From Prochlorococcus sp. AG-442-N17 (GTDB taxonomy: Bacteria; Cyanobacteriota; Cyanobacteriia; PCC-6307; Cyanobiaceae), in the NCBI GenBank assembly GCA_003212375.1, contig QCPY01000002.1:35785-99784 (forward strand): a stretch of 64,000 nt of DNA, written 5' to 3'. A model generated the notes under the pieces. That model was not told the origin of the DNA. It did not search any database and saw only the letters and a program-made list of their open reading frames with translations. Below are positions 3,860-46,658 of this stretch, one piece after another. Numbering within the stretch: position 1 is the first letter of the stretch; each line of letters begins with the position of its first letter. The position numbers and the translations under genes were made by a program.

Positions 3860-4170
3860 ATTTTAAAATTAGAGGGTATTATTCTCATTGAAATTTATTA
3901 AGTTTATTTGATGTAACCTAGATCCTTAAATAGCTTTAGATTAAATCTTTTTTAATTAATAGCAAAATTAATTAATAGAAAAATTAGATTTTTTAGATGG
4001 CTAAACACTGGCTAAATTTTACCCCTTTCTGCTTTGGCTATTAATTCAACTCTTCTTCTCTATTTAATTCTTTTGATAGCTATTAAATAATTTTTCTTGG
4101 TAAAAAAACTCAAAAAATTAAAAAAAATTATATTAAATTAATACTTTTTGAACATTTTAAAATACACATT

Positions 4171-4208
4171 ACTTTCGTAAAAAGATTCTTTGATGGATAA
4201 TAAATTAT
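4171..4208 (+). repeat. Dispersed island repeat R1, copy a
   Basis: One of at least seven same-orientation copies of an element that begins ACTTTCCTAAATAGAT-like and ends TGATGGATAATAAATTTAT-like. This copy reads ACTTTCGTAAAAAGATTCTT then TGATGGATAATAAATTATG. It is the only copy outside the 21-46 kb region and lies in the 412-bp gap before the second desaturase. Confidence 0.7.
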
Positions 4209-4242
4209 GTAAATAAAAATTTATTTAAAACCAACACCAAAA

Positions 4243-21459: not shown

Positions 21460-21616
21460 AATTAACACTAAATTACGTGCAAAAATTTATTTTTTCATTC
21501 GGAGAGTTTTAACCTTTAAGGTTAATTTTTGGCCCAATTTTCATTATTAAAAAAGGTTTATGAATACTTAATTTACCTATAAAGAAAGTATTAATCAAAC
21601 CTAAATATCAACCACA

Positions 21617-21650
21617 TCTCTCCTAAATAGATTATTTGATGGCTAATGAA
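21617..21650 (+). repeat. Dispersed island repeat R1, copy b (diverged)
   Basis: Reads CTCTCCTAAATAGATTATTT then GATGGCTAATGAA, close to the other R1 copies in the first two-thirds but changed in the GGATAATAAA part. Confidence 0.6.
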
Positions 21651-21788
21651 CTCAGAACTAATGCAAATAAATTTCTTCGAAAAAAGAGATTATTTTCATA
21701 ATAAATTCAAAAAAAATCAGTATATTTACGGATATACAAAAAAAGTTTTTCGTAATAATTTGTATTTGTTAAAAGGGAGGGATTAGAA

Positions 21789-26330: not shown

Positions 26331-26441
26331 TCAATTGTTGTTGATTTTGTTCTGAGTCAATATTTTTTGATAATGTTTATAGAGATCAATTTCATCTTGA
26401 TATTCACTAGCTAAACCAAGATTAAGTCGTGCTAAAAGCAT
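26331..26441 (-). CDS. Shortened paralogue of the 45.3-kb small gene (36 aa)
   Basis: MLLARLNLGLASEYQDEIDL... matches residues 12 onward of the 48-aa protein at 45324. The DNA upstream also matches (CTACAGGAATTAAAGGATAATG against CTACAGAAAACAAAGGATAATG) but carries TAG and TAA in the old N-terminal frame. So this is either a gene restarting at the internal Met or a dying copy. Confidence 0.5.
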   Translation of the reverse strand: MLLARLNLGLASEYQDEIDLYKHYQKILTQNKINNN

Positions 26442-26503
26442 TATCCTTTAATTCCTGTAGTACTAAATTGGAATCATTATTGTTGCTGGTGATCTAATAC
26501 TAA

Positions 26504-29226: not shown

Positions 29227-29296
29227 ACCTTAATTAGAAATTTCTTAGGTCATTTTTGCTTTATAAGACGTTCCAGTTTGCCCTGTGCCTCCGATC

Positions 29297-29335
29297 ACTT
29301 TCCTAAAAAGAAACTTTAATGGATAATAAATTTAT
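29297..29335 (+). repeat. Dispersed island repeat R1, copy c
   Basis: ACTTTCCTAAAAAGAAACTT then TAATGGATAATAAATTTATG. Upstream bases (GCC...CCGATC) also resemble those before copy e. The ATG inside opens a 28-codon frame (MDNKFMKKGFGNSS...) that could be a fused remnant of another gene. Confidence 0.75.
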
Positions 29336-29514
29336 GAAAAAAGGTTTTGGTAACTCTTCACAAAAGTCCAAAAAATCGCTGAAATCCATTACTAATAATA
29401 GTTAGCAAATAAATAATATTTCTAGATTGGATTTCAAAAAAATTTTAACCGCTTTATTCAGAATATGCTCAAAAAAATTTCGATGATAATAAATAAATGA
29501 AATCTGATAAACAT

Positions 29515-36344: not shown

Positions 36345-36605
36345 TAAATCTGCATGGGAGGATATTAAAAACATTCAAAAGATTTAGTTGCAGAATCATC
36401 AGAACTTATCAAAATCCATTAAATTGAGATTTTTCATTATATTGCTTATGCGATTTTTACCTTAAAAGAGGCCTTTAGCTATAAAGGGATTCAAAATAAA
36501 GACCTTACAACTTATAATTGCATTTTTAAAAATGTAAGAATTACTTGGGAATTTACTTAGACGCAAAGATCACAAGGAACTACTGATATGAACACTTGGT
36601 CATAA
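36345..36605 (+). pseudogene. Degraded copy of the SnoaL-like gene at 45.6 kb
   Basis: From TTAGTTGCAGAATCATCAGA onward the DNA closely matches the 3' half of the 45587-45970 gene through ACTACTGATATGA and ending ACTTGGTCATAA, but it contains several in-frame stops (for example ...AAAATTTACTTAG). The 5' half is lost or unrecognisable. Confidence 0.8.
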
Positions 36606-36731
36606 ATGACACATATGTATGGGATAGCAATTACATATGGTCTCATAAGTTTATTATTACTTGGTAGATTTGCTTATTCAACTTTTAAGATTAATAAAAA
36701 AGAACAGATTAGAAAAATAGGAAGATATTAA
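36606..36731 (+). CDS. Small membrane protein (41 aa), possibly frameshifted
   Basis: MTHMYGIAITYGLISLLLLG has one span and a basic tail, KINKKEQIRKIGRY. In the next frame the DNA continues KKENYYDDFDNDWEI to a stop, so the original product may have been longer, with an acidic tail, and this one truncated by a frameshift. Confidence 0.5.
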   Translation: MTHMYGIAITYGLISLLLLGRFAYSTFKINKKEQIRKIGRY

Positions 36732-37654: not shown

Positions 37655-37841
37655 TAATATGTTTATATTTTTGGTATTCTAACGAAATATTTTCAAAAAT
37701 TTACTTCTTTTATTAAGCTTCAAAATATATTAAATACTCAAAAAGATTTAGAGAAAGAAGACGTTTAAAAGGAGGGAGAAATTGAACAGGTAGAGGAATT
37801 CAATAAAGAAGGAAAATTGGAATCAACTTTTCAAAATATCA

Positions 37842-37994
37842 ATGATTTATGGTTTTGCTTATCTAGGAATGGTTCCTGCTATTAGTGCAGAATGAGTAGT
37901 ACTTGCAGCTTTTTATAAAACTAAGTTTATTTAAAAGCCAGTTGAGCAATTAAAAAATTAAATAAGACCTTTATAAAGTTCCAAAGAAGATTAA
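37842..37994 (+). pseudogene. Dead collinear copy of the 44.08-kb membrane gene
   Basis: Exactly 153 bases, as long as the intact gene at 44078-44230, with no indels. It starts MIYGFAYLGMVPAIS and ends SSKED, but four in-frame stops replace Trp18, Glu31, Lys40 and Leu45. The close DNA match shows a duplication followed by decay through point mutations. Confidence 0.9.
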
Positions 37995-38120
37995 TTAAAG
38001 ATTTTAATTTGGGAATAAATTCTTTTATTGTAAAACCAGAATTAATACTCAAAATAAAATTTAAGTAGAGGCTACAAAATAAAGGTCTAACAATAAAGGA
38101 ATTATTCCAATGTGGAGATT

Positions 38121-38448: not shown

Positions 38449-38576
38449 TAAATATTGTGAGAGTAATTCTTCCTAAATTTCCCTACTTTTAAAAAAATTA
38501 CAGATCGCAATTGAGCAAGATAATAATACTTAAAAAGTATAGTCAAGGTCTACCAATCACTAACTTTTCACCCTCT

Positions 38577-38614
38577 CTTTCCTAGTTAGTAAATTTGATG
38601 GATAATAAATTTAT
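38577..38614 (+). repeat. Dispersed island repeat R1, copy d
   Basis: CTTTCCTAGTTAGTAAATTT then GATGGATAATAAATTTATAG, same orientation as all other copies. A further CCAATCAC-type stretch lies just upstream, as in copy e. Confidence 0.75.
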
Positions 38615-38809
38615 AGTTATTCATTGAGCAAATTGATCTACAAATTTTAACTTTCACTAGGAGTAACCAACAGATAACTTACTTAATCTTTCCTTCAAAT
38701 CAGTTGACATGAAACAAAGAAAAGTTCCGACTAATAAACCATATCTCAGATATCATGGCAAAGGTTTTTAAAAACCTATAAAAAATATTCACGATATATT
38801 GACTATTAA

Positions 38810-41535: not shown

Positions 41536-42054
41536 ATGAAATTAAAATTCATGCCAACAACAATTTTTAGAGAGACTCCAAAAGTGACATTCTTTGATGC
41601 AGGTTTGGAGAAATCTAACGGTTGTGATGTAGTAATTCACTCTGAAGAGGCTATATCTCCTCCAGATGATTTTAAAGATGAACAATATTACGTTCACAAT
41701 CATCAAATTGATCACAACTTAGTTATCTCTGGAGAAAGAACATTTGTTTTATTAAATCCTTCATGGGATGAACCCCATCATGTGATTTATTTAAATAGAT
41801 CAATGGGAGCATTAGAAATTCCTATTGGAACTTATCACAGATCAATCTCAGGGAAAGAAGGTAGTATTGTATTAAATCAACCCAAAAGAGATAAATTTTT
41901 CGATCCCACTAAAGAATTTATCCCACAAAAATTAGACAAAATAAATTTAATTAAGGCAAGAAAGACTCCTCCTGTTTATTGGATTTACGAAAATAATCAA
42001 ATTAAGAGAGTCAGCTTTAATCCCCTAGAACGAAATAGTAAGATCCTTGCTTGA
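41536..42054 (+). CDS. Cupin-like hypothetical protein (172 aa)
   Basis: The GTG at 41521 in the track is replaced by ATG at 41536 (MKLKFMPTTIF). The central YYVHNHQIDHNLVISGERTFVLLN resembles a cupin strand pair with a possible HxxxxH metal site; LEIPIGTYHRSISGKEG would be the second cupin motif with a His. Likely a metal-binding beta-barrel of unknown activity. The LOG-like gene begins right after its stop, so they form an operon. Confidence 0.65.
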   Translation: MKLKFMPTTIFRETPKVTFFDAGLEKSNGCDVVIHSEEAISPPDDFKDEQYYVHNHQIDHNLVISGERTFVLLNPSWDEPHHVIYLNRSMGALEIPIGTYHRSISGKEGSIVLNQPKRDKFFDPTKEFIPQKLDKINLIKARKTPPVYWIYENNQIKRVSFNPLERNSKILA

Positions 42055-42055
42055 T

Positions 42056-42922
42056 ATGAACAAAACAAAAAAAGGGCTTTCAAATAAAAATAATAATTCA
42101 AAAAATCTGAATTTAATTATTAATTCTGATACTTATAAATTGGCTTATGAAGATATTGGTTTGCTCAACAAAAACGAAATGCGCGGAGTCAGAATGCTGC
42201 TCGAAATTACTAAACCAGATTTAATCCTAGAAGAAAATAAAATTCTTTCAACCGTAATAATTTTTGGAGGTGCAAGTATTACAGAAAAATCAAAAACAAA
42301 AGAGAAAATTGCCGATGCAAAAAAGTTAATTGAAAAAAATCCTTCATCTATTTGGCTTAAACGAAATTTAAATCGATTAGAAAATTTGCTAACAATGAGT
42401 CACTATTATCAATCTGCAAGGGAGTTTTCACAACTTGCTTCAATAAATAATCAAAATAAAAACTGCAATTCTCATGTGATTGTGACAGGTGGCGGTCCTG
42501 GGATTATGGAAGCTGCTAATAGAGGTGCATTTGAAGCAAATTGTAAATCTATAGGGTTCAATATCAGTCTTCCAAATGAACAAATCCCCAATGCTTTTAT
42601 CACTCCAGGTCTATGCTTTAAATTTAATTATTTTGCATTAAGAAAGATCCATTTCGTCATGCGATCAATAGGAGCTGTATTTTTTCCTGGAGGTTTTGGA
42701 ACATTGGATGAATTATTTGAACTTTTAACACTCCGCCAAACAGGAATGAAAAATAAAATCCCAATAATACTTTTTGGTAGAGAATATTGGAATAAGATAA
42801 TTAATTTCGAATACTTAGCTGATCTTGGATTGATTGCAGATGAGCACTTAAATCTTTTTGAATATGCAGATACTGCAGCCGAAGCATGGGAAATTATCAA
42901 ATCATCAAATATCTCAGATTAG
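42056..42922 (+). CDS. LOG/TIGR00730-family nucleotide phosphoribohydrolase-like protein
   Basis: The family has the motifs GGGPGIMEA and PGGFGTLDELFE, both present (VIVTGGGPGIMEAANRGAF; FFPGGFGTLDELFELL). Family members release bases from nucleoside monophosphates or act as cytokinin riboside phosphoribohydrolases; many were once called lysine decarboxylases. The N-terminal 95 residues are an extra helical domain. ATG at 42056 is chosen over the track TTG. 288 aa. Confidence 0.9.
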   Translation: MNKTKKGLSNKNNNSKNLNLIINSDTYKLAYEDIGLLNKNEMRGVRMLLEITKPDLILEENKILSTVIIFGGASITEKSKTKEKIADAKKLIEKNPSSIWLKRNLNRLENLLTMSHYYQSAREFSQLASINNQNKNCNSHVIVTGGGPGIMEAANRGAFEANCKSIGFNISLPNEQIPNAFITPGLCFKFNYFALRKIHFVMRSIGAVFFPGGFGTLDELFELLTLRQTGMKNKIPIILFGREYWNKIINFEYLADLGLIADEHLNLFEYADTAAEAWEIIKSSNISD

Positions 42923-42965
42923 GGTAGAAATCCAAAAAATAATGAAGTTTGCCATACCACCAATC

Positions 42966-43003
42966 ACTTTTCCGAATAGTAAATTTGACGGATAATAAAT
43001 TCA
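42966..43003 (+). repeat. Dispersed island repeat R1, copy e
   Basis: ACTTTTCCGAATAGTAAATT then TGACGGATAATAAATTCACA. Preceded by GTTTGCCATACCACCAATC, similar to the bases before copy c. Followed 73 bp later by a decayed EVE 5' end. Confidence 0.75.
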
Positions 43004-43060
43004 CATATACAAATCTTTTGAATTTCATTCACAATTTACAATTTTCCCGTAATCATTTTT

Positions 43061-43130
43061 ATGACTAAAGAAAAGTTTTGACTAATTAAAAGTGAGCCAG
43101 TAGTTATAACAATCGCTCTTAAAAATCAGA
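43061..43130 (+). pseudogene. Decayed 5' end of the EVE-domain gene
   Basis: MTKEKF-stop-LIKSEPVVITIALKN lines up with MPQKEPSYWLMKSEPDAYSIDSLK of the intact EVE protein; TGG became TGA. Position relative to R1 copy e (73 bp) is the same as for the intact gene (71 bp). Confidence 0.7.
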
Positions 43131-43180
43131 TAAATTCCATTGACACCTCATCCACATTTTTTTTAAAAAAATTTTTAGTA

Positions 43181-43217
43181 AAAAAAGCCAATATGTACAT
43201 TCAACAAACTGGCTTTC
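43181..43217 (-). terminator. Terminator of third hli pair
   Basis: On the minus strand AAAGCCA ... TGGCTTTTTTT gives a 7-bp stem with a long loop and a T-run, 25 bases after the hli stop. Confidence 0.65.
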
Positions 43218-43242
43218 ATAACGATCTTGATTGAATGAGTTT

Positions 43243-43386
43243 TTAAATGACCCCAGGTACAATTTGTCCTGTTGTTATGTAGGCTCCAACTAAAGCAATA
43301 ACACCAACAAGAGCAAATCTGCCATTTAATTTCTCTGCATTTGTTTTTTGAGGATCGATGTTTCTTTTTTGATTTTTGTTTTCCAT
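43243..43386 (-). CDS. hli: High-light-inducible protein (47 aa)
   Basis: Start is the ATG at 43386 overlapping the stop of the preceding hli. MENKNQKRNIDPQKTNAEKL continues NGRFALVGVIALVGAYITTG and ends QIVPGVI. Standard HLIP helix. Second gene of the pair; terminator downstream. Confidence 0.92.
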   Translation of the reverse strand: MENKNQKRNIDPQKTNAEKLNGRFALVGVIALVGAYITTGQIVPGVI

Positions 43387-43502
43387 TAAAATACACCTGG
43401 AATAAGTTGACCTGTTGTTATATATGTTCCGACTAAAATCATGAAAGCCATCATTGCTGGTCTTCCAATGGCTTTGTCGAGAATGTCTTTGTTTGAATTC
43501 AT
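43386..43502 (-). CDS. hli: High-light-inducible-like protein (38 aa), divergent
   Basis: MNSNKDILDKAIGRPAMMAF continues MILVGTYITTGQLIPGVF. The ExxNGR motif is changed to KAIGRPAM, losing the usual acidic residue that helps bind chlorophyll, so pigment binding may differ. Coupled by TAATG to the next hli. ATG preceded by weak RBS. Confidence 0.85.
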   Translation of the reverse strand: MNSNKDILDKAIGRPAMMAFMILVGTYITTGQLIPGVF

Positions 43503-43654
43503 TTCGGCATTAAGCTAATGAATAAATATTACTTATTGTAAACAAAAGGGGAGAGGAGCTTGTATCATTTGAACCAATTTATACACAAATGAATCAATTA
43601 TGTCGCACATTACTCTAATATAATAATCTTTATAAACGTCATTAACACATTTAA

Positions 43655-43771
43655 ATGACTATGAACGAAGATTTAGAAAAAAGAATTAAAAACTTAGAAA
43701 AAGAAGTTCAACATTTAAAAGCTGCATTACAGTATCAAACAAAAAATAAGAGGAGATCAATTTATAGTTAA
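43655..43771 (+). CDS. Small coiled-coil protein (38 aa)
   Basis: MTMNEDLEKRIKNLEKEVQHLK has regular hydrophobic heptad positions (L-I-L-V-L) and a basic tail (KNKRRSIYS). Likely a short dimerising coiled coil. A second Met two codons on is an alternative start. Confidence 0.55.
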   Translation: MTMNEDLEKRIKNLEKEVQHLKAALQYQTKNKRRSIYS

Positions 43772-43865
43772 TTTAAGTTGAATTAACAGGAAGTTGTATT
43801 ATTTGATGTTGATTAAAACTAGATCTCTAAATTAATTTGAAATTGATAGTTAAATTTGTTGGCTA

Positions 43866-44066
43866 ATGGAAGTTTTGCTTTTTGCACTATTTTTTATAGT
43901 GTCACTTACATTCTTTGTCTCAGGTAAAGATGATTTCGGAAGAAAAGAAAAAAGATTAATAATTAAAAATAAAGAAAAAGAGGAGGTGAAAAAAGTGATG
44001 AGACTTGAACAAAAGGAGGAAGTCAAAGAGGATGTCAAAGAGGAAGTTGAAATGGAATCAAATTAA
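43866..44066 (+). CDS. Small membrane-anchored charged protein (66 aa)
   Basis: One N-terminal span (MEVLLFALFFIVSLTFFVSG) followed by an extremely Lys/Glu-rich helical region (KEKEEVKKVMRLEQKEEVKEDVKEEVEME). Coding DNA contains GGAGGTGAAAAA-type repeats. A degraded relative may lie at 37.7-37.84 kb, next to the dead copy of the following gene, which suggests the two were duplicated together. Confidence 0.65.
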   Translation: MEVLLFALFFIVSLTFFVSGKDDFGRKEKRLIIKNKEKEEVKKVMRLEQKEEVKEDVKEEVEMESN

Positions 44067-44077
44067 TTAAAGTATCG

Positions 44078-44230
44078 ATGATTTATGGTTTTACATATCT
44101 AGGAATGGTTCTTGCAATTAGTACAGGATGGTTTTTACTTGCTGTTTTAAAAAAACCTGAATTTATTGAAAAGCCAATTGAGCAATTAAAGAATAAAATA
44201 AGACCTCTTTTAAGTTCCAAAGAAGATTAA
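44078..44230 (+). CDS. Small membrane protein (50 aa)
   Basis: MIYGFTYLGMVLAISTGWFL... has one or two short spans and a charged tail (IEQLKNKIRPLLSSKED). Begins 11 bases after the 66-aa gene. The exactly equal-length dead copy at 37842 shows it was under constraint as a protein. Confidence 0.7.
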   Translation: MIYGFTYLGMVLAISTGWFLLAVLKKPEFIEKPIEQLKNKIRPLLSSKED

Positions 44231-44296
44231 TTAAAGATGATTTATTTTAAAAGCTATTGTTTTATTTAAAAACCAAAATTAATGACTTTTTGAGTT

Positions 44297-44326
44297 TTCT
44301 TTAAGAATGTAGCTGATGCAAAATAA
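44297..44326 (+). pseudogene. Remnant of the lipoprotein gene 3' end
   Basis: TTCTTTAAGAATGTAGCTGA continues to a stop as FFKNVADAK, equal to the FFKNVADIK end of the 39731-39973 protein with one change. The rest of the gene is missing. Confidence 0.6.
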
Positions 44327-44350
44327 TAGAGATTAATCATCTAATTTATA

Positions 44351-44510
44351 TTATTTTATTTCTAAGTTCTCCGCCTTCCTCAATATTGGATTCTTTAAAA
44401 AAACAAGCGCATCTAATTTTTCTTCATTGTCTTTTTCGATAATACGATATTTCCCACCACAACTAATTTATGGATTGTCTTTGATAAGTAAAAAATCTTT
44501 ATAATTGCTG
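44351..44510 (-). pseudogene. Possible remnant of a small gene
   Basis: Minus-strand KDFLLIKDNP-stop-ISCGGKYRIIEKDNEEKLDAL continues to a natural stop, with no start codon before it. It has a coding look but is not intact. Nothing else is seen in the 44.33-44.65 kb gap. Confidence 0.35.
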
Positions 44511-44655
44511 CATGAGGAGAGAAAAAATAAACAATACTACCAAAAAAAGTTTTTACTTTTGATTAATTAAATCCCTCCACAAGCAAGCCATCAAATAAAA
44601 GAAAGAAAGACTTGAAAAGGTTAGGAGAAAAAGAGAATGGGTCAATTTTCTAAAA

Positions 44656-44760
44656 CTAAATTAAACCAAATAATCCTGCAGTAAAACCAACTACCGCAAA
44701 GAATATGAACTCAATCAAATCCCTTGGGGCAGAGTTCATAAATAAACTGATTTGAGTCAT
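44656..44760 (-). CDS. Small membrane peptide (34 aa)
   Basis: MTQISLFMNSAPRDLIEFIF... ends FFAVVGFTAGLFGLI, a hydrophobic C-terminal anchor, the reverse of the other tiny membrane genes here. It follows the secreted 64-aa gene by 4 bases on the same strand. Confidence 0.55.
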   Translation of the reverse strand: MTQISLFMNSAPRDLIEFIFFAVVGFTAGLFGLI

Positions 44761-44764
44761 AATT

Positions 44765-44959
44765 TTATGACTTGAGAGAATCTTTTAAATCAAATTTTTC
44801 AGCTTTTTCAGTTTGACACTTAGTATCATCTTCAACGCATTTGATTTCAGCTTTTTTATTCGTTTGGCTACTGCAGCCGCCCGCCATAACTGGTAAACCT
44901 GTTGTAGCCGTAAAACCGGTTAAACATGCAAAAACGATATAAGGAAAAAGACTTTTCAT
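44765..44959 (-). CDS. Small exported cysteine-containing protein (64 aa)
   Basis: N-terminal MKSLFPYIVFACLTGFTATTG... is a signal peptide; LPVMAGGCSS resembles a lipobox with Cys29, so it may be a lipoprotein. The mature part has CVEDDTKC, a possible disulfide. Function unknown. Confidence 0.65.
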   Translation of the reverse strand: MKSLFPYIVFACLTGFTATTGLPVMAGGCSSQTNKKAEIKCVEDDTKCQTEKAEKFDLKDSLKS

Positions 44960-45090
44960 TTAATTATTACTTTATGTAAACTTATTATGTTACATAAAAA
45001 GCTCAACTGTGAGTAGCTGATAATTTGACAGGAATTTATCAAGTCATCTTTACGATGTAGTAAGATCGTGTGTACCCCAAATCAACCTTA

Positions 45091-45130
45091 ACTTTCCTTA
45101 ATAGATTTTTTAATGGATAATTAATGTATA
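45091..45130 (+). repeat. Dispersed island repeat R1, copy f
   Basis: ACTTTCCTTAATAGATTTTT then TAATGGATAATTAATGTATA. From here to 45230 the DNA closely follows 46092-46230. Confidence 0.8.
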
Positions 45131-45183
45131 TCTGAACGAGTTATTCTTACTTCATTCGAACTTGAAATTTTCGCCGAGATCCA

Positions 45184-45318
45184 ATGCCAAAAAAGGAAAC
45201 TAGCTACTGGCTAATGAACCATGTGCTAGTAGTCATAGCAATCGATTTAACAACCTTTAAAAAAATGTTCAGGATCTGTTCACGATTTTTACATCTAAAA
45301 TTGATTGCAAAGATTTGA
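45184..45318 (+). pseudogene. Truncated copy of the EVE-domain gene
   Basis: MPKKETSYWLMN matches the first 12 codons of the intact EVE gene (MPQKEPSYWLMK), then unrelated sequence continues to a TGA (44 codons in all). Upstream DNA (ATCTGAACGAGTTATTCT, TTTTCGCCGAGATCC) also matches. The break in similarity at about 45225 marks a recombination junction. Confidence 0.85.
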
Positions 45319-45323
45319 TAATA

Positions 45324-45470
45324 ATGGCAATTTCACACTACAGAAAACAAAGGATAATGCTTTTAGCAAGACTCAATCTTGGTTTAGCTAGTGAAGATAA
45401 AGAAGAAATTGATCTTTATAATCATTATCAAAAAAATATTTATTTAGAACAAAATCAACAGCAGCAATAA
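45324..45470 (+). CDS. Small helical protein with poly-Gln end (48 aa)
   Basis: MAISHYRKQRIMLLARLNLG... is helical, with a Gln-rich end (EQNQQQQ). Shares residues 12 onward with the 36-aa copy at 26.3 kb. It starts 5 bases after the truncated EVE frame and may be read from the same transcript. Confidence 0.65.
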   Translation: MAISHYRKQRIMLLARLNLGLASEDKEEIDLYNHYQKNIYLEQNQQQQ

Positions 45471-45545
45471 AATGATTTAAGGATCAGGCGCGGCTTTAAA
45501 ATATATCGTAATTTTTTACCCAAACTTTGCTCAAACTTTTAACGA

Positions 45546-45586
45546 TTGACAGTCGGTCTAAAATAATGGGCATTAGCACCTTTTTA
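45546..45586 (+). promoter_or_regulatory. Conserved short-leader promoter element, copy 2
   Basis: TTGACAGTCGGTCTAAAATA, then GGGCATTAGCACCTTTTTA directly before the ATG at 45587, matching the element before 28807. This distance argues for the 45587 start. Confidence 0.5.
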
Positions 45587-45970
45587 ATGTCAAATACTAA
45601 AGCCATAGAAGATTTAATTAATGGTTATGCAAACAGTGAAGATTCTTCTTTTCTAATACCAAACATAACTGAAGATTTTTTAGCTGTAAGACCAAGTGGG
45701 AATCCAATATCTGCTAAAGGATTAGTGGGAATGTTTGATAGTAAAGACTTAGTTGCAGAATCATCAGAACTAATCAAAACCCACAAAATTGAAATTTACG
45801 GTGAGATAGCTTACGCAGTTTTTACTTTAAATGAAATCTTCAGTTATAAAGGAAATCAAAATAAAGATCTTTCAACTTATACTTGCATTTTTAAAAATGT
45901 AAATGGTACTTGGAAGTATTCTTGGATGCAAAGATCTCAAGGCACTACTGATATGACCACGTGGGAATAA
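45587..45970 (+). CDS. SnoaL/NTF2-like protein (127 aa)
   Basis: The track starts at TTG 45527; ATG 45566 and ATG 45587 are in frame, and the latter (MSNTKAIEDLINGYAN) is preferred because of the leader element. An alpha+beta cone fold is suggested: an N-terminal helix pair, then DLSTYTCIFKNVNGTWKYSWMQRS, the C-terminal strands typical of NTF2-like proteins. Could bind a small ligand; no catalytic residues identified. A decayed copy lies at 36.35-36.6 kb. Confidence 0.75.
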   Translation: MSNTKAIEDLINGYANSEDSSFLIPNITEDFLAVRPSGNPISAKGLVGMFDSKDLVAESSELIKTHKIEIYGEIAYAVFTLNEIFSYKGNQNKDLSTYTCIFKNVNGTWKYSWMQRSQGTTDMTTWE

Positions 45971-46091
45971 ATTAATCGCTTACTACTTAAATAAATTTAT
46001 AACCTCAAAAAAATGTATACAAAATAATTTATAAATCTTTCTAGGTTTTAAATAATTAATCATCTACTTAGTTTTCCCCATATAACCCCTT

Positions 46092-46130
46092 ACTTTCCTA
46101 AATAGATAATTTGATGGATAATAAATTTAT
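46092..46130 (+). repeat. Dispersed island repeat R1, copy g (at intact EVE gene)
   Basis: ACTTTCCTAAATAGATAATT then TGATGGATAATAAATTTATA. The contained ATG opens a 17-codon frame (MDNKFISERVILTSFEP) ending before the EVE gene; it may be a leader peptide or chance. Confidence 0.85.
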
Positions 46131-46184
46131 ATCTGAACGAGTTATTCTAACTTCATTCGAACCTTAAATTTTCGCCGAGATCCC

Positions 46185-46658
46185 ATGCCTCAAAAGGAAC
46201 CTAGCTACTGGCTAATGAAGAGTGAACCAGATGCTTATAGTATTGATAGCCTAAAAAGCGACGGAGTTACCTTATGGGATGGAATCCGGAATTATCAGGC
46301 ACGCAATTTCATGAGAAGAATGCAAATAGGTGATAAAATTTTTTTTTACCATTCAAATTGTAAACCCCCAGGAATCGTTGGTTTGATGGAGGTTATTGAT
46401 CTGAACATTATTGATCCAACTCAATTTCAAAAAGAATCAAAGTACTTTGACCCTAAATCGAGTCCTGAAAAACCAAGGTGGGATTGCGTAAAAGTAAAAT
46501 ATCTTTTAAAAGGAAATAAATTTTTAAGCTTACCTGAATTAAAAATCTTATTTAATGAGGAAGAATTGTTGCTAATTAAAAAAGGTAATAGATTATCTAT
46601 AATTCCTGTAGAAATAAAAATAGCTAATATAATACTCGATAAGATTAAAGCAGAATAA
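46185..46658 (+). CDS. EVE-domain protein
   Basis: EVE domains (PUA-like) read modified bases in DNA or RNA. The diagnostic YWLMKSEPDAYSIDSL start and LWDGIRNYQARNFMR, GDKIFFYHSNCKPPGIVG segments are present; the Trp/Ser/Asn pocket residues are there. 157 aa equals the family norm. It is the first conserved gene at the right border of the island, and partial copies of its 5' end with the R1 element occur twice upstream. Confidence 0.95.
   Translation: MPQKEPSYWLMKSEPDAYSIDSLKSDGVTLWDGIRNYQARNFMRRMQIGDKIFFYHSNCKPPGIVGLMEVIDLNIIDPTQFQKESKYFDPKSSPEKPRWDCVKVKYLLKGNKFLSLPELKILFNEEELLLIKKGNRLSIIPVEIKIANIILDKIKAE

Follow-up and report, generated by a model that had tools for sequence, protein, structure and literature searches.

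How does a series of truncated gene starts come to stand upstream of an intact gene, each behind a copy of the same repeat? The question is raised by a 64,000-nucleotide stretch of DNA (hereafter the window) from Prochlorococcus sp. AG-442-N17, a member of the sea's commonest group of photosynthetic microbes, in which copies e, f and g of a repeat, R1, are each followed by the start of an EVE-domain gene. An earlier, sequence-only reading of this locus proposed successive site-specific insertion of small-gene cassettes that left att-like copies behind. We conclude, with a probability of roughly 0.8, that site-specific recombination has inserted cassettes at the start of the EVE gene and so built up an array there.

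An ordered array ending at the EVE gene

The features of the window are collected in Table 1. The three stacked R1-EVE copies of the sequence-only reading are real but form part of a larger array of seven R1 copies, all on the + strand and in one ordered series with EVE at its end. An nhmmer search of the window for further copies returned nothing with E <0.5. Copies f and g are alike over 149 nt at 87%. The intact EVE start at 46185, the decayed start at 43061 and the truncated one at 45184 are all present as first described, but that list was incomplete, as copy d also retains a decayed EVE start. The DNA that follows MPKKETSYWLM in f, at first taken to be unrelated, is a cassette left end belonging to a family present in many genomes. 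The interval between f and g does carry the SnoaL-like gene noted earlier, but it also holds a second, decayed left end. The window's own array is old and mostly decayed. R1 may be the PRE1 of Coleman et al. 2006, reportedly a ~48-bp Prochlorococcus repeat element enriched in islands; we know of no report tying PRE1 to the EVE gene, the core site or the arm repeats.

Table 1. Coordinates of array features within the 64,000-nucleotide window
Feature	Position	Strand	Remarks
R1 copy a	4149-4219	+	profile search
R1 copy b	21597-21664	+	profile search
R1 copy c	29275-29344	+	profile search
R1 copy d	38554-38623	+	a decayed EVE start follows; left-end arms at 38787-38805
LOG/lysine-decarboxylase-like gene, last in cassette left of e	42056-42922	+	PF03641
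R1 copy e	42946-43013	+	nhmmer window search, E 8e-14
EVE 5' end of e, displaced and decayed	43061-43100	+	core now GACTAATTAA (43080-43089); EVE 5' profile to model position 236
Cassette e-f	43090-45208	+	small genes, some hli-like
Decayed left-end arm repeats of e	43139-43156	+	ATTGACACCTCATCCACA
R1 copy f	45069-45138	+	nhmmer window search, E 3e-15
Right-end arm repeats of f	45143-45161	+	ATTCTTACTTCATTCGAAC
Displaced EVE 5' end of f	45184-45218	+	terminates in core GGCTAATGAA (45209-45218)
Cassette left end of f	45219-45290	+	arm repeats GTTCAGGATCTGTTCACGA (45267-45285); left-end family common to many genomes
Cassette f-g	45219-46209	+	51-aa ORF, DUF3804 (SnoaL-like) gene, relic second left end
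Relic left end within f-g	45505-45541	+	arm repeats ACCCAAACTTTGCTCAAAC, arms at 45518; left-end profile E 1e-6
R1 copy g, in right end adjoining EVE	46070-46139	+	nhmmer window search, E 1e-17
Right-end arm repeats at EVE	46144-46162	+	ATTCTAACTTCATTCGAAC; 11-bp period
EVE-domain gene, integration target	46185-46658	+	PF01878, E 1e-51
Core recombination site at EVE	46208-46230	+	CTGGCTAATGAAGAGTGAACCAG; EVE-to-left-end switch point of all internal copies; putative imperfect inverted half-sites
Common core	46210-46219	+	GGCTAATGAA; inside the 46208-46230 site

The switch point lies within the EVE coding sequence

Of 200 genomes of the genus, 170 carry the EVE-domain gene as a single copy. We located 99 internal junctions in 33 genomes of the genus, the genomes and cassettes compared being non-independent. 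A junction usually reads from the EVE promoter and start into the core and then into a cassette left end, of which a small number recur. The exact common core occurs in 75% of the junctions, and every junction type switches there. Counted by strand, the core appears 106 times on + and 0 times on -, always in the orientation of EVE. Integration falls at EVE codons ~9-14, with the core TGGCTAATGAA, and looks like the work of tyrosine-recombinase recombination. R1 itself was rejected as the crossover site, as homology continues through the EVE start and halts at the core; the crossover falls within the EVE reading frame, at least ~70 bp past the downstream end of R1. Candidate inverted half-sites (CTGGCTAA/T.AGCCAG) around 7 bp score 4.61 of 8 in the genus versus <=3.04 at other offsets, and 3.55 versus 3.00 in a non-redundant set; in other genera this offset is not the best-scoring one, and the right inverted half-site is weak. 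The same array anatomy recurs elsewhere in the family, in about ten more genera, so that what was first described as a feature of this locus is indeed present here but is family-wide.

Cassettes are mostly 2-4 kb in size, with a median of 2.8 kb. The left end consists of the core, ~50 bp, and an 11-bp repeat pair that often matches that of the right end. The right end consists of R1 or an alternative (one right-end type is without R1), the 11-bp repeat pair, the EVE promoter region, the start codon with the first ~8 codons, and the core. These paired direct repeats, or arms, lie ~60 bp from the core at both ends of cassettes, and were found in 78 of 132 right ends and 71 of 99 left ends versus 63 of 2000 controls. 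The left and right ends of a cassette tend to carry the same repeat type, with a mean of 10.75 versus 8.57 after shuffling (0 of 5000 shuffles reach 10.75), although left and right arms are mismatched in about half of cassettes. Several distinct arm types go with the one core, and matched-arm cassette types include ATTCTAGC and ACTCAAAC.

Cassettes exchange the EVE promoter and start

Shared cassettes turn up at differing ranks and with differing neighbours. Ends of homology blocks concentrate at cores (19 vs 4.7; 71 vs 22.9), and orphan left ends at two other, unrelated loci begin at the same base, namely the core. EVE itself reflects this exchange. Its 5' end and its remainder are uncorrelated across genomes (rho 0.015, 528 pairs), and EVE remains in frame with each right-end type. 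For instance, in the comparison of AG-442-N17 with genome G041 the left part agrees at 99% and the right part at 76%. In the window, the DNA left of ~46210 is, judging from the sequence, cassette-supplied. These comparisons show that an insertion leaves the old EVE 5' end upstream, while the gene acquires a promoter region and an in-frame start from the cassette. The target site is not duplicated, contrary to what had been suggested: it is the intact 5' end of EVE that came with a cassette, and the fragments are earlier 5' ends that were displaced.

The sequence-only reading also predicted that strains without the cassettes would carry one R1-EVE copy and that junctions, once located to the base, would coincide with the repeat. 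Both hold. In relative G147, a single R1 lies between the homologue of 42056-42922 and EVE, with 92% identity to window positions 41762-43006 followed by 78% to 46073-46649. A search of ~16 kb revealed no internal EVE-start copy in G004, G105, G113, G109, G172 or G022. Successive insertion is strongly supported, since the repeat and the junctions fall together, the cassettes behave as separate units that can move, and strains without these cassettes have one copy.

Searches for the enzyme

Earlier statements that the locus has neither a tRNA nor a recombinase stand: the window contains no tRNA, which removes a tRNA as target, and the contig of its own genome encodes no PF00589 tyrosine recombinase. 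No recombinase was found in cassettes. A search of 78 genomes, 36 from the genus and 42 from elsewhere in the family, found no PF00589 integrase in or near arrays, except for a diverged catalytic-domain relative of 178-203 aa that sits upstream of EVE in G022 and G112. A serine resolvase gene is conserved ~88 kb downstream in several genomes; it was dismissed as the enzyme, being absent from G209, G290 and G306, all of which have EVE upstream copies. Phage or viral carriers were likewise set aside. Viral contigs were searched with one 18-base R1-core pattern, two core and two arm patterns, and among the matches listed all lacked the context of the site; a junction query against phage records returned nothing.

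As no recombinase was found in the cassettes, the enzyme would act in trans. The leading candidate is a conserved 388-aa tyrosine recombinase encoded beside hemH. It may be that this stationary chromosomal protein is the array's own enzyme, as in a chromosomal integron with its integrase gene elsewhere in the genome, a proposal that we rate at clearly below even odds. About 13 genomes, most of which have arrays, encode no other PF00589 protein, its catalytic residues are invariant, and its N-terminus is predicted by AlphaFold to form an arm-binding-like domain of three strands plus a helix (pLDDT ~90, in a model with pLDDT 79 from 20 homologues and 35 from a single sequence). However, the protein is family-wide, including genera in which no array was seen, so that array specificity by co-distribution is unsupported and the protein could equally well serve in housekeeping, for example in dimer resolution. 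The several distinct arm types also favour several enzymes. These same arm types, with their single core, would fit helper elements (tRNA-island elements, satellites or phages) that supply several integrases of differing arm specificity, the cassettes being non-autonomous hitchhikers, a proposal that we rate at just below even odds. EVE-type junctions within the tRNA islands of G183 and G250, and the diverged recombinase upstream of EVE noted above, point the same way, but no integrase was found adjoining an EVE-type attP in the 78 genomes, among the matches listed from viral contigs or in phage records.

Two further proposals fare worse. Homologous recombination between repeated right ends might be the sole means by which cassettes are swapped, with no site-specific enzyme acting now; right ends of the same type resemble one another and measure ~130 bp, and many homology blocks cross them. 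This is improbable, and already disfavoured as the sole cause, since right ends of differing types join shared left ends precisely at the 11-bp core, the arms at opposite ends of a cassette vary together, and the orphan left ends begin at the core. Alternatively, R1 could be a promoter or regulatory repeat copied along with genes, the EVE starts being by-products. R1 does stand where a promoter of EVE would lie, always in the same orientation, but the repeat runs through the EVE start codon up to the core and ends there, downstream genes often lie in the opposite direction, and R1 is missing altogether from one right-end type. We give this proposal hardly any credence.

Proposed mechanism and its significance

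In the site-specific recombination that we favour, a cassette circle would recombine with the EVE core. The enzyme would be a tyrosine recombinase that binds the core half-sites and, through an arm-binding domain, the 11-bp repeats; it could be supplied in trans either by the 388-aa recombinase or by helper-element enzymes. Newcomers would enter mainly beside EVE and shove older cassettes upstream, where the fragments would decay. Against this, the trend of decay with cassette rank is weak (rho -0.23).

Such a system offers a base-precise mechanism by which small adaptive genes, hli among them, could come and go in a phototroph that is both streamlined and globally dominant, without prophages or local integrases. 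It means that EVE, a core gene, regularly receives its promoter region and N-terminus from mobile DNA. Island turnover becomes directly testable, as the junction sequences predict circles, target and orientation, and the naturally co-varying arm sites could be used to study integrase specificity.

Comparison with known systems

Tycheposons of Prochlorococcus (Hackl et al. 2023), as outlined in PMC10872708, integrate site-specifically in genomic islands of the same organisms. They target tRNA genes, carry their own tyrosine recombinase and span 4-200 kb, whereas EVE cassettes share neither that target, nor the recombinase, nor that size. Closer in organization are the additive flexible genomic islands with tRNA-end repeats of Methylopumilus (fGI-2, PMC10872708) and Actinomarinales (PMC7771536). 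According to the portions of these accounts consulted, they too are ordered small cassettes parted by target-end fragments in streamlined marine or freshwater bacteria, but their targets are tRNA genes rather than a protein gene, and those portions do not describe paired arm repeats or a replaced promoter. Like EVE cassettes, dusA-type islands enter a conserved protein gene, here dusA, at its 5' end, supply the gene's new 5' end, and have short att direct repeats with the old 5' end at the far end (PMC4482086). They are, however, single large islands or prophages with their own dusA-family integrase (PMC4482086), whereas the EVE arrays are tandem small cassettes with matched arms and no PF00589 protein.

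Integrons and CALIN resemble EVE arrays in having movable cassettes, in one orientation, without a local integrase and possibly served in trans (PMC11389934). Their sites are folded attC (PMC11389934), whereas the EVE sites would be a double-stranded core plus arms in a protein gene, and EVE cassettes, unlike theirs, are ~2.8 kb with several genes. It is tempting, if rather speculative, to see here an integron-like system of a new kind, Prochlorococcus-wide, in which a fixed chromosomal arm-binding tyrosine recombinase captures and releases double-stranded cassettes where a housekeeping gene begins, replacing promoter and N-terminus each time, with ends matched by co-varying arms. In their site architecture, EVE sites have both the common core and the element-side arm repeats of lambda/Tn916-type attachment sites.

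R1 copies and the EVE gene

The sequence-only reading had described three stacked copies of R1, a repeat of ~70 bp, each followed by the start of the EVE-domain gene (EVE) with the last alone intact, and all of these are present in the sequence where it had placed them. Seven copies occur in the window (nhmmer E ≤4e-11; next-best match 0.7), and convincing copies in the source genome (a 1.18-Mb assembly of 34 contigs, ~73% complete) are confined to this stretch. EVE itself is intact (PF01878, E 1e-51), and 170 of 200 genus genomes have one copy of it. In G147, a relative, the gene that in the window lies left of copy e (42946) reaches EVE via a single R1. The absence of tRNA genes from the window, claimed from sequence, was confirmed as well.

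An R1 model matches 35 of 36 genus genomes, with 1 to 13 copies per genome, some assemblies being incomplete and "single-copy" ones having been searched just ~16 kb upstream. Copies lie nearly always on the EVE strand and ≤~40 kb upstream of EVE; in the 33 extracted upstream regions, every copy shares its orientation. A profile built on the EVE 5' end shows that internal copies extend past R1: they include the 5' UTR and the beginning of EVE, and most end near codon 13-16. About ten more genera of the family, most with low GC contents (0.33-0.41), share the anatomy, as does one genus of intermediate GC (0.48), where it lies 25-50 kb upstream of EVE; none of the high-GC genera sampled showed it. 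Judging by gene content and a remark in the sequence-only reading, this family is presumably Prochlorococcus/Synechococcus. The R1 repeat itself may not be new because PRE1, a repeat of Coleman 2006, may be R1.

Features of the EVE arrays and related loci
Feature	Location	Strand	Remark
R1, seven copies	window 4149, 21597, 29275, 38554, 42946, 45069, 46070	all +	nhmmer
Inverted repeat, 118 nt	window 26363-26480 / 45318-45435		86%
Cargo gene duplicates	window 36378-36607 / 45743-45972; 37814-38002 / 44050-44238		81% identity
GATTGACAGTCG(A/G)TCTAAAATAA, example	window 45545-45570
Ubiquitin-autotransporter proteins	L077:6184-7392 (G106); L073:2860-4065 (G141)	both +	PF00240 E 2e-23, 2e-24
Diverged recombinase-like protein	L040:3104-3637, 13.5 kb upstream of EVE in G022	-	catalytic domain alone
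Relative of the G022 protein	G112:C1:109739-110263
EVE-type junctions in tRNA islands	L117 (G183:C1:1539456-1539678); L286 (G250:C1:71533)
Serine resolvase-like gene, examples	G172:C1:1441700; G041:C1:1534349		PF00239

Junction core and arm repeats

Aligned at the point where they stop, the internal copies comprise an EVE promoter and start (about eight types), the core T(A/T)(C/T)TGGCTAATGAA, and one of a few recurrent non-EVE sequences to its right. The 5' ends adjoining EVE are of the same types, and old junction copies keep this layout in decayed form. Over 0.68 Mb, the + strand has 106 copies of GGCTAATGAA and the - strand has 0. The core resembles inverted half-sites, CTGGCTAA and T.AGCCAG, with 7 bp between them; the left one is strong, while the right one is moderate within the genus and weak in the other genera. 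R1 is thus a common component of right ends and not the recombining site, because junctions switch at the core and one EVE-proximal 5'-end type has another upstream block in place of R1.

Both cassette ends carry arm repeats, paired 8-base words with an 11-bp period (ATTCTAGC, ATTCGAAC, ACTCAAAC, ATCCAAAC, GTCCACAC, GTTCACGA, CATACCAGC and others). In most right-end types they directly precede the EVE start; in most left ends they follow the core at a distance of ~59 bp. Of 132 right ends, 78 have a near-perfect pair (7 or 8 of the 8 bases alike), as do 71 of 99 left ends, compared with 63 of 2000 random windows. Left and right arms of the same cassette match with a mean score of 10.75 (n=90), versus 8.57 for shuffled partners (highest of 5000 shuffles, 9.80). 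One right-end class has an inverted arm; for 10 of 12 cassettes, its two variable bases, read by eye, match those at the left end. Such paired, matched arms would be the expected look of tyrosine-recombinase attP arms. The sequence GATTGACAGTCG(A/G)TCTAAAATAA, possibly a promoter or operator of the cargo, recurs right behind many left-end arms.

Cassettes (median 2.8 kb) carry small genes without assigned function, porin-like proteins, hli-like genes and others. Two cassette proteins of ~400 aa have an N-terminal ubiquitin domain, unexpected in such an organism, followed by an autotransporter beta-domain (PF03797). Within the window, a small gene of cassette f-g has an opposite-strand copy 19 kb off, and cargo genes, including a DUF3804/SnoaL-like gene, are duplicated in separate cassettes of the same array.

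Mobility of cassettes

Identity over the 75 nt preceding the core shows no relation to EVE identity after the core (528 genome pairs; rho 0.015, p 0.73); several of the present tests rest on related, non-independent genomes and cassettes. The source genome and G041 are 99% identical on the left side of the core and 76% identical on its right side; for G041 and G050, the values are 38% and 93%. Homology-block ends between genomes concentrate at cores: 19 were observed where 4.7 would be expected (highest of 500 shifts, 13), and 71 against 22.9 (highest, 43). Nine families account for 34 of 93 compared cassettes, recurring at varied ranks beside varied neighbours; family F1, for instance, adjoins EVE in G090 and G039 and is interior in G120, G128, G185 and G183. 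The farther a fragment lies from EVE, the more decayed it is (rho -0.37, p 7e-5), which is consistent with cassette entry beside EVE, though for rank in the array the value is just -0.23.

At other loci of G041 and G042, two left ends occur as orphans: their flanks are unrelated, and they start exactly at ATGAAAAGTGA, as would be expected if the same site were used off target. Right-end/core/left-end junctions of the EVE type also occur far from EVE in two tRNA islands, beside tRNA-Thr/Tyr (G183) and tRNA-Pro (G250); such islands are a possible vehicle.

Candidate recombinases

The earlier statement that no recombinase is present here holds: no recombinase was recognised among cassette genes, and PF00589 was not found in the arrays of 36 genus genomes and 42 other family members, the one exception being a diverged catalytic-domain protein of 178-203 aa, missed by Pfam, which lies upstream of EVE in G022 and G112, with a relic in G015. 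This protein is 23% identical to a 388-aa enzyme encoded between hemH and cobO, the single PF00589 protein in about 13 genomes, most of them array-bearing. This enzyme is conserved family-wide with invariant catalytic residues; its N-terminus is predicted to form an arm-binding-like domain of three strands plus a helix (pLDDT ~90), and among solved structures it comes closest to Xer, integron integrase, Tn1549 Int, Cre and lambda Int. For the enzyme of the arrays it is no more than a candidate, because it is also present where no array is seen and because there are several arm types, which would speak for several enzymes. A conserved serine resolvase-like gene sits ~88 kb downstream of EVE, at constant distance, in several genus genomes; three genomes from other genera lack it.

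Comparison with known systems

The searchable literature, with Coleman 2006 and the tycheposon paper outside it, yielded no account of the EVE link, the core, the paired co-varying arms or the replaced 5' end. A tycheposon as described is ruled out, the EVE arrays being without tRNA and recombinase, and a dusA island was ruled out by test. The likenesses are to dusA 5'-end islands (PMC4482086), in that the element brings a new 5' end to its target gene; to additive islands, in their tandem cassettes (PMC10872708, PMC7771536); and to CALINs (PMC11389934), as cassette arrays without an integrase, compared on array layout. By analogy, EVE arrays would work like dusA islands, additive islands and CALINs combined.
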